Positions 38,696 through 41,262 of a stretch of 64,000 nt of DNA are shown piece by piece (position 1 is the stretch's first letter; each line of letters begins with the position of its first letter). The DNA is taken from assembly GCF_000221185.1 (NCBI RefSeq), contig NC_015865.1, positions 1,612,001-1,676,000 on the forward strand, written 5' to 3'. A program made the translations under genes and the position numbers. Origin of the DNA: Thermococcus sp. 4557 (lineage in GTDB: Archaea > Methanobacteriota_B > Thermococci > Thermococcales > Thermococcaceae). The notes under the pieces are model-generated. The model made no database searches. It was not told where the DNA came from and was given only the letters and a program-made list of their open reading frames with translations.

Positions 38696-39427
38696 ATGCT
38701 TGAAAAGGAGAAAGAAGCCCTGGCAAAGAGGATAGCGGGGGAAATAACCCTCTCCTCCGACCCCGGTAAAACCATGCGCAAATGGCGTGAGATATTCGGA
38801 ATCAGCCAGACGGAGCTCGCCGAATACCTCGGTGTTTCTTCTTCGGTCATAAGCGACTACGAGGGCGGCAGGAGAAAGAGCCCCGGCGCGTCCACGATAC
38901 GGAAGTTCGTCGAGGCCCTCCTTGAGATAGACGAGAAGCGCGGTGGAAACGTGATCCGCGCATTCAGCAAGACCCTCGGCAGCGAGCTTCCCACGAGCGC
39001 CATACTCGACATCAGGGAGTTCGCCCTCCCGATAACCATAAAGGACCTCGTTGGGGCCGTCAGGGGAGATGTCGTCGCCAACATGCACCTCCTCGACAGG
39101 CGCATATACGGCTACACCGTCGTCGACAGCATAAAGGCGATCCTCGAGATGAGCAGCGAGGAGTTCCTCAAGCTCTACGGCTGGACGACCGAGAGGGCGC
39201 TGATATTCACCAAGGTAACAACCGGCAGAAGCCCGATGATAGCGGTCCGCGTTCAGGGGCTCAAACCGGCCGTTGTCGTTCTCCACGGGGTCAAGAAGCT
39301 CGATGAGCTCGCCGTAAAGCTCGCCGAGCGTGAGAGGGTTCCGCTGGTGATATCGAACGTTGGAAGTGAGGCAGAGCTCATTGCCGGCCTTAGAAGGCTG
39401 GTAGAAAAGACAGATAAGGAGTTCTGA
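38696..39427 (+). CDS. HTH (XRE-type) transcriptional regulator
   Basis: Regulator of 243 aa with an N-terminal Cro/C1-type helix-turn-helix (RKWREIFGISQTELAEYLGV, then SSSVISDYEGGRRKSPG, residues about 28-66). The C-terminal part (VTTGRSPMIAVRVQGLKPAV and a terminal Rossmann-like segment) is conserved in Thermococcales but has no known ligand. A TATA-like AAGCTTATAACG lies at about 38665. The targets are unknown; the divergent dphB gene and convergent PPS gene give no clear clue. Confidence 0.85.
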   Translation: MLEKEKEALAKRIAGEITLSSDPGKTMRKWREIFGISQTELAEYLGVSSSVISDYEGGRRKSPGASTIRKFVEALLEIDEKRGGNVIRAFSKTLGSELPTSAILDIREFALPITIKDLVGAVRGDVVANMHLLDRRIYGYTVVDSIKAILEMSSEEFLKLYGWTTERALIFTKVTTGRSPMIAVRVQGLKPAVVVLHGVKKLDELAVKLAERERVPLVISNVGSEAELIAGLRRLVEKTDKEF

Positions 39428-39429
39428 GC

Positions 39430-40215
39430 TCACTCCAGTGTCTTCTTCCTCCAGACCCCCCCTTCGGCCAGCCTGGTCAGCCTGCGCTCCATGTGCATGA
39501 GCACGTCGCTCAGCGTTTTTTCGTTGCTGTACTCCTCCAGAATCGCGAGGAGCTCTCCGCGGCTGTAGTCCTTCATCTCCCTCGCCAGCTCCGTCATCCT
39601 GGGATACGCGCGGACTATGTTGTCGACGATTGTTATGTCGGCCATCCTAGCGGAGCGTGAAAGCGGGTTGAGGTCAACGGTGATCACGAACTTGCCCATC
39701 CTGACGAGGGCCTCCGTTCTGTCGCCGTCCTCCAGCGGGACAACGACTACATCGGCCTTCCAGATTCCCTCCTCGTCAACCTTTCCCCTCTCATGCTCCA
39801 GGCCCGGAATGCGCTTCGTGGGATTTATCCCCAGGAGCTCCACATCGGGGTCGTGCTTCCTCAGCTCCTCCGCTATCGCCCTAACGCGCTCTTCCGTGCG
39901 GTAGAATAGGTTTATCTCGAGCTTGGCGTTCAGCGCTTTTGCCAGCTCTATCGTCTCCTTTGGAACGAGTGCCGCGACGTTGCCGTTGACCGAGATGACC
40001 GGGTGCTTCGCCAGGATCAGCTTGGCGACGGCGGCTTTTATCGCCCTCTCGGCCGGCTCTATCGTCCTCTCCCCGATGAGGTAGTCGAAGGCCTCACCGC
40101 GGCCGTGGGCTATCAGCCCGGCCTTGGCCGTCATTCCCTTCTCCATTCCCTCGATGATCTTTTCCCTGTAGTACAGGCTCCAGTAGCGCGGGTGGCTCTT
40201 CGGTATCTCCACCAT
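39430..40215 (-). CDS. 4-phosphopantoate--beta-alanine ligase
   Basis: Archaeal phosphopantothenate synthetase (COG1701, 261 aa). It joins 4-phosphopantoate to beta-alanine using ATP, replacing bacterial PanC/CoaA chemistry in CoA synthesis. Seen: IPKSHPRYWSLYYREKI at the start, KHPVISVNGNVAALVP, INPTKRIPGLEHERGKV and TVDLNPLSRSARMADITIVD. ATG 40215 (MVEIPKSHP) follows GGTGATTGAG; GTG 40224 is possible. Its paired enzyme, pantoate kinase, is not in this window. Confidence 0.93.
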   Translation of the reverse strand: MVEIPKSHPRYWSLYYREKIIEGMEKGMTAKAGLIAHGRGEAFDYLIGERTIEPAERAIKAAVAKLILAKHPVISVNGNVAALVPKETIELAKALNAKLEINLFYRTEERVRAIAEELRKHDPDVELLGINPTKRIPGLEHERGKVDEEGIWKADVVVVPLEDGDRTEALVRMGKFVITVDLNPLSRSARMADITIVDNIVRAYPRMTELAREMKDYSRGELLAILEEYSNEKTLSDVLMHMERRLTRLAEGGVWRKKTLE

Positions 40216-40327
40216 CTCAATCACCGGTTACAGTTACGTGCTCATGCTAAAAAGGCTTCCCAAAGCGAAAGACCCCCACTGCCGGCTTAAAAGAAGGACG
40301 CTCCGGCCTTGTTTTGGGCGAAAAGGA

Positions 40328-40384
40328 GTTTTAAACCTTTGGTTTAAAAAACTGTTATAAACCTAAAGTTTAAAACCAAAGGTG
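40328..40384 (+). promoter_or_regulatory. Tandem SurR-like operators before nfnAB
   Basis: Two perfect copies of the SurR consensus GTTn3AACn5GTT lie here: GTTTTAAACCTTTGGTT at 40328-40344 and GTTATAAACCTAAAGTT at 40354-40370. A third, overlapping copy with one mismatch (GTTTAAAACCAAAGGTG) is at 40368-40384. SurR is the redox switch that shifts Thermococcales between hydrogen and sulfur metabolism. The set ends 35 bp before the nfnA ATG and overlaps TATA-like sequence. Confidence 0.7.
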
Positions 40385-40419
40385 AACAAAACTGTTCATA
40401 TGTACGGGAGGTTTCATCC

Positions 40420-41262
40420 ATGTACCGAATTACCGCGAAAGAAGAACTGGATGTTAGGGATTTCTTTATGGAGGTCGAGGCGCCGCACGTGGCAAGGGCC
40501 TGGAAGCCGGGTCAGTTCGTTGTTTTGCTGATACACAAGAAGGGCGAGAGAATTCCAATGTCCATCTACTACGCCAACAGGGAGACCGGAAGGATAGGAA
40601 TGTTCATCAGGAGGCACGGAAAGACCACCTTTGACCTCTGGGACAACTTCGACGTTGGCGATTCCCTCTACGCGGTCGCGGGCCCGCTTGGAAAGCCCAT
40701 CGAGGTCAAACACTACGGAAACGTCGTCTTTGTCTCCGACGCCGTCTGTGGACAGGCCGAGAACTACGCCACTCTCAAGGCGATGAAGGAGGTTGGAAAC
40801 TACACGATCTCCATCCAGACCTTCGAGGACAGGGCCCACTCCTACCCCGAGAAGTTCCTGGCAAAGCCCGCCGCCGACGAGTACTACCTCACCACGGAGG
40901 ACGGCTCGCGCGGAATCAAGGGACACTACCTCGACGTTCTGAAGGAGCTCATCGAGAAGGACAAGGTCGACATAGTCTTCGGCGGAGGAAGGCTGGGCTC
41001 GCTCAAGAAGCTCGCCGAGCTGACCAGGGAGTACGGAATCCCCACCATAGTCACTGTCAGGCAGATAATGGTGGACGGAACCGGCATGTGCGGCTCCTGC
41101 AGGATACTCTACGACGGCGAGATAAAGTTCGCCTGCCGCGATGGGCCGATGTTCGACGCCCACAAGGTGGACTGGGACGACGTCATAAGGCGTGACAGCA
41201 GGTTCGTTCGCGAGCAGGAGATAGCCAAAAAGCACTACCTCGAGTCCAGGGGGGTGGTCTGA
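40420..41262 (+). CDS. nfnA: NfnAB small subunit (ferredoxin:NADP+ oxidoreductase / sulfide dehydrogenase beta)
   Basis: FAD and [2Fe-2S] subunit (280 aa) of NADH-dependent ferredoxin:NADP+ oxidoreductase, a bifurcating flavoprotein first described in Pyrococcus as sulfide dehydrogenase. Seen: a PyrK/ferredoxin-reductase-like FAD domain (PGQFVVLLIHKKGERIPMSI), an NAD-binding region, and the [2Fe-2S] loop DGTGMCGSCRILYDGEIKFA with four Cys near the C-terminus. The large subunit starts directly after its stop. The tandem SurR-like sites suggest redox control. Confidence 0.92.
   Translation: MYRITAKEELDVRDFFMEVEAPHVARAWKPGQFVVLLIHKKGERIPMSIYYANRETGRIGMFIRRHGKTTFDLWDNFDVGDSLYAVAGPLGKPIEVKHYGNVVFVSDAVCGQAENYATLKAMKEVGNYTISIQTFEDRAHSYPEKFLAKPAADEYYLTTEDGSRGIKGHYLDVLKELIEKDKVDIVFGGGRLGSLKKLAELTREYGIPTIVTVRQIMVDGTGMCGSCRILYDGEIKFACRDGPMFDAHKVDWDDVIRRDSRFVREQEIAKKHYLESRGVV

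Follow-up and report, generated by a model that had tools for sequence, protein, structure and literature searches.

The window analysed here is a stretch of 64,000 nucleotides from the genome of Thermococcus sp. 4557 (G000; 2.01 Mb, single contig). It carries two genes for a ferredoxin:NADP oxidoreductase of the Nfn type, nfnS and nfnL, and the divergent CoA biosynthesis gene pps, separated by an intergenic stretch of 195 bp (40225–40419) that runs from the pps start at 40224 (minus strand) to the nfnS start at 40420 (plus strand). A core promoter and several matches to the motif of the regulator SurR lie within this stretch (Table 1). A gene for a 243-aa helix-turn-helix protein (HTH_3; 38696–39427) adjoins pps and is two genes away from the Nfn pair.

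Table 1. Features of the nfnIII locus, in window coordinates.
Feature	Position	Strand	Remarks
pps, 4-phosphopantoate--beta-alanine ligase (CoA biosynthesis)	39430..40224	-	NF041123 and NF010324 above cut-off; PDB 4mb0
Upstream extended SurR site (uSBS)	40328..40344	+	exact match, GTTTTAAACCTTTGGTT
BRE-like A-run, AAAAA	40347..40351	+	A40349–A40351 invariant in 61/61 promoters
Second site of the sequence-only reading	40354..40370	+	exact match, GTTATAAACCTAAAGTT; overlaps TATA box
TATA box core, TATAA	40356..40360	+	four bases 61/61, A40357 60/61
Downstream extended SurR site (dSBS)	40360..40376	-	exact match; faces uSBS
Third site of the sequence-only reading	40368..40384	+	one mismatch, last base; GTTTAAAACCAAAGGTG
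Predicted transcription start region, GTG	40382..40384	+	inferred from TATA/BRE distances
Leader element, GTGAACA n4 TGWWCA n2 TGnAC	40382..40405	+	conserved in most of 61 orthologues
Ribosome-binding sequence, GGGAGGT	40406..40412	+	fits GGDGRD of PMC4247193
nfnS, NfnIII-type ferredoxin:NADP oxidoreductase small subunit, 280 aa	40420..41262	+	
nfnL, large subunit, 478 aa	41263..42699	+	PDB 5vj7_A 841 bits, 5jca_L 751 bits

Identity of the Nfn genes

In the sequence-only reading of the window, the pair was named nfnAB. It does encode an Nfn-type ferredoxin:NADP oxidoreductase, more precisely NfnIII (FNOR2) and not NfnI or Xfn. Three Nfn classes have been described in Thermococcales (PMC6405883; PMC6085437), and the window gene is assigned to NfnIII by elimination of NfnI and Xfn. 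The small subunit scores 226 bits against NfnI (PDB 5jca_S) and 195 bits against Xfn (5vj7_B), compared to 579 bits for a true NfnI and 580 bits for a true Xfn from a relative. Among 37 small subunits placed in a tree, the reference sequences of NfnI and Xfn branch off with a support of 1.000, and nfnS falls into a third clade. It has the Fe-S motif DGTGMCGSC and a DHODB_Fe-S_bind domain, as a two-subunit Nfn distinct from both other classes. The glycine-rich GGGVG loop of NfnI is replaced in it by SDAVCG, and the Xfn of the genome is a separate gene. For the large subunit, the best match is Xfn. The SDAVCG sequence is located at about residues 106–111 of nfnS, in the NADH domain, and reads ADAVCA or SDAVCA in the relatives shown; this replacement suggests that NAD(H) may not be the partner of the NfnIII small subunit.

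The name FNOR2 is reached through T. kodakarensis. The pps of genome G024 is identical to PDB 3wdk over 261 residues; we take 3wdk to be a T. kodakarensis entry and G024 to be T. kodakarensis. In G024, the nfnIII orthologue is found at 1,478,868–1,479,689 and Xfn at about 1,171 kb. Two FNOR gene pairs are named in this species (PMC6401487; PMC12016516), and their order on the chromosome indicates that NfnIII corresponds to TK1684-TK1685, i.e., FNOR2. Two literature names, NfnIII and FNOR2, would thereby be tied to one gene.

SurR-type sites around the nfnIII core promoter

The motif scanned was the extended SurR consensus GTTn3AACn5GTT, with GTTn3AAC as its core. The original observation is real: two exact plus-strand matches, 26 bp apart, and one match with a mismatch in its final base were recovered where they had been reported, the second coincides with the TATA box, and 35 bases separate 40384 from the ATG at 40420. 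The list of three plus-strand sites was correct as far as it went and overlooked an exact minus-strand match, the dSBS, which consists of a palindromic core (40368–40376) and an outer half-site, AAC (40360–40362), at the edge of the TATA box.

Three exact extended matches are present in the 64-kb window against 0.24 expected, a number reached in 0 of 100 shuffles, and all three fall within the 195-bp intergenic stretch, where 20,000 dinucleotide-preserving shuffles never gave as many. Genome-wide there are 36 exact extended matches, compared to 10 for the reversed pattern. Among the 33 located outside the window, 24 are outside and nine inside the longest non-overlapping mechanical ORFs; one of these nine is in the ORF of SurR but ahead of its actual start, the homology to PF0095 beginning at residue 31. 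One exact match precedes the second nfn operon (Xfn) of the same genome, and other intergenic matches precede ORFs which, by eye, we take for antiporter/hydrogenase-type and pyridine-nucleotide oxidoreductase genes. SurR itself is encoded (L040), with 402 bits to NCBIfam NF047699 (cut-off 250) and 311 bits to PDB 2qlz (PF0095), and its CTEC aligns with CMEC, the N-terminal CxxC of P. furiosus SurR. The features of a SurR-regulon promoter are found together here, namely the core and extended motif, sites flanking BRE and TATA box, and a CxxC-bearing SurR encoded in the genome.

The small subunit was found in 90 of 94 Thermococcaceae genomes, and among the matches listed 61 are of the window type (69–100% identity); the DNA upstream of all 61 genes was aligned. 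An exact extended site is present in 60 of these orthologous promoters, the exception being G045, with one differing base in its upstream site. The uSBS is exact in 59 promoters (G045 and G054 are each one base off) and nearly invariant at every base, including the spacer CCTTTG, and its end is 11 bp from TATAA in all 61. The dSBS is found in extended form in 38 promoters and as the core alone in eight, and 15 have no exact core; the palindromic core and the AAC at 40360–40362 are kept in most. Promoters without the exact core are those of L006, L007, L009, L010, L012, L013, L059–L062, L064, L065, L070, L075, and L078. The extended dSBS is kept in 8/8 genomes having NfnI and NfnIII and in 30/53 without NfnI, an exploratory comparison (Fisher p = 0.02) that ignores kinship and takes the presence of NfnI from the match listing.

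Conservation does not bear out a tandem arrangement with three sites of equal standing. Only 11 of the 61 promoters have the TATA-overlapping match in exact form, those of the window and 10 other genomes belonging to two groups, and the bases that make it a site, G40354 and T40355, are each present in 14/61; a lineage-specific role for this match may exist, as it is exact in two groups. The third match is the core of the minus-strand site. Three tandem sites were therefore rejected as the conserved unit. Judged by conservation, this unit is a pair of convergent sites around the TATA box.

The convergent pair, searched as a 49-bp pattern, occurs once each in 39 of the 94 genomes, and the reversed-pattern control gave no match. 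Small-subunit genes of nfnIII follow 37 of these matches, and the remaining two precede an nfnIII fragment at a contig end (G035) and a decayed remnant of the nfnIII large-subunit gene (G080). As all matches are at nfnIII genes or their remnants, the architecture belongs to nfnIII. In the decayed operon of G080 (L191 2082–2489 and 2759–2807), the small subunit of nfnIII type is gone and the large subunit is truncated, and the promoter has both SurR sites intact. SurR cores are in other arrangements than at nfnIII in the comparison promoters (10 Xfn and five NfnI), and the exact core is absent from one of the 10 Xfn promoters, that of G007.

In T. kodakarensis, the TATA box and the BRE precede the transcription start site by a median of 23 and 33 bp, respectively, and 5' leaders have a median of 16 nt, most being 10–50 nt long (PMC4247193). 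These median distances place the predicted nfnIII start at about 40382–40384, on a conserved GTG, which gives a leader of about 36 nt; T40383 and G40384 are each conserved in 60/61 promoters. With the start on this GTG, G40384, which had been read as the mismatch of the third site, is probably the initiator.

The leader element

The predicted start is followed by a conserved element whose TGnnCA boxes are spaced by 10 and 8 bp. Its exact palindromic form, GTGAACAn4TGTTCAC, has 10 occurrences in the 94 genomes, all at nfnIII leaders, and the window leader is this form with one mismatch. A profile search of the own genome (E up to 10) gave the nfnIII leader as the sole match; across the 94 genomes, the best 36 rows are nfnIII leaders and weaker rows are mixed. 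An operator of a wider regulon was rejected, the own-genome profile match being at the nfnIII leader only, and the Xfn leader was dropped as a look-alike, having no match to the profile in the same search. A separate scan, of genome contigs, kept 80 loci, one of them from a Thermococcus, and contributed nothing further.

The long palindrome was also rejected as an RNA hairpin, with 81.0% of cells paired compared to 80.2% in shuffles and no excess covariation. A shorter dyad of 4 bp, leader columns 13–16 with 21–24, does covary, mainly at the pair 14–23 with 10 both-sided changes, and its covariation score was equalled in none of 500 shuffles. Four pairs seem too few for an RNA hairpin at growth temperature, which makes a DNA dyad equally likely. 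As far as the pattern and profile searches go, the leader element is a conserved feature specific to nfnIII.

Proposed control of nfnIII by SurR

The nfnIII promoter counts as a conserved part of the SurR regulon already described, and the system itself is known from its orthologue. The FNOR2 promoter of T. kodakarensis belongs to the orthologous gene, and G024 shares with the window both the convergent pair and the divergent pps; it differs in that the middle GTT of the TATA-overlapping match is missing (GCGTATAAAC). The nfnIII promoter of G029, which from its gene order we take to be probably T. piezophilus, has extended sites both upstream and on the minus strand. For T. piezophilus, SurR motifs are given before the NfnI, NfnII/Xfn, and NfnIII operons, with one short motif at 42 bp for NfnIII (PMC8595942, Table 2). 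The Xfn/FNOR1 promoter of the window's own genome (upstream of G000 C1:1747171, minus strand) resembles that of nfnIII in having GTTn3AAC cores before and after the TATA box. It differs (L055 2205–2266) by a reversed upstream extended site, the core of which ends about 5 bp before TATAA. No prior description of the convergent geometry was found in the open-access papers searched, a scope outside which Hidese 2017 and Lipscomb 2017 lie.

It is very probable that nfnIII (FNOR2) has a SurR-controlled promoter at which the uSBS activates and the weaker dSBS dampens, expression being favoured without sulfur. The sites are present at the positions given, and so is the gene for SurR. When elemental sulfur is absent, SurR with a reduced CxxC would bind the uSBS, just before BRE and TATA box at a fixed phase, and recruit the transcription machinery. 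It would also occupy the weaker facing dSBS beyond the TATA box, dampening expression. Sulfur would oxidise SurR, both sites would be vacated, and nfnIII would return to basal expression. Both the T. kodakarensis orthologue and the positional rule for SurR, which activates from upstream of the TATA box and represses from downstream of it (PMC12162507), suggest SurR binding, an activator role of the uSBS, and a repressor role of the dSBS. Reduced SurR is described as binding and activating the T. kodakarensis FNOR2 promoter (PMC12401011, citing Hidese 2017), and a higher abundance in the absence of sulfur is listed for FNOR2 (TK1684-TK1685; PMC12016516).

The upstream site of FNOR2 reportedly enhances expression and binds SurR better, and the downstream site is said to repress; how far the upstream site lies from the TATA box is also said to matter. 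The invariant 11-bp distance at nfnIII agrees with such a distance effect. As the dSBS core is inexact in 15/61 orthologues, the repressor arm would not be universal, and cooperation between the facing sites is a conjecture. The SurR control that had been suggested for these genes from their sites is sustained as a general reading by extended sites in 60/61 promoters, an encoded CxxC SurR, and an orthologue reported as a target; its tandem anatomy is not. The strong and possibly cooperative character also suggested for this control would be conjectural.

Several other readings of the locus were weighed. Some promoters need both an upstream and a downstream SurR site for repression (Hidese 2017, in PMC12162507), and SurR could likewise be mainly a repressor at nfnIII, the two sites jointly switching it off without sulfur. 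Most Xfn (FNOR1) promoters compared have cores before and after the TATA box. The promoter repressed through two sites is said to be that of FNOR1. Nfn, the isoform not being named, is also among genes under negative SurR control (Moalic 2021; PMC8595942), which conflicts with a net activation of nfnIII. This reading is nevertheless very unlikely, because the orthologous FNOR2 is the promoter given above as SurR-activated and more abundant without sulfur (PMC12401011; PMC12016516), and the 15 promoters without an exact downstream core retain the upstream site. Three functional sites, with SurR binding independently to the one that overlaps the TATA box, would fit the exact match at 40354–40370 here and in the 10 other genomes; they are very unlikely in view of the unconserved first half-site, the remaining parts of the match being accounted for by the TATA box and the minus-strand site.

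The sites might instead serve pps, which is divergently upstream in 46 of the 61 fetched loci. This is most improbable, and pps is probably not a SurR target here, for the distance from the site to the nfnIII TATA box is fixed, also in L025 and L029, which lack pps in the 1.5 kb upstream. AT-rich promoter DNA could resemble GTTn3AAC by chance, GTTATAAAC and GTTTAAAAC being TATA-like in themselves, but the probability of this is negligible: the shuffles of the intergenic stretch never gave three matches, and it is already refuted by how little the upstream site varies among the 61 promoters.

Activation through the uSBS with dampening through the dSBS may be extended to a graded switch, a rather doubtful possibility. 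When reduced SurR is scarce, the strong, strictly phased uSBS would activate; when it is plentiful, the weaker dSBS would close the promoter; and the leader would provide a SurR-independent control. The output of nfnIII would then be highest in an intermediate redox state, and lineages without the downstream core would miss the shut-off.

The corrected anatomy gives a clear outline of a SurR operator, judged from orthologous promoters: a near-invariant 17-bp activator site at a fixed phase to the TATA box, and a facing downstream site that would be its evolutionarily optional part. The 15 of 61 promoters that naturally have no exact downstream core provide a ready test of the role of the downstream site.
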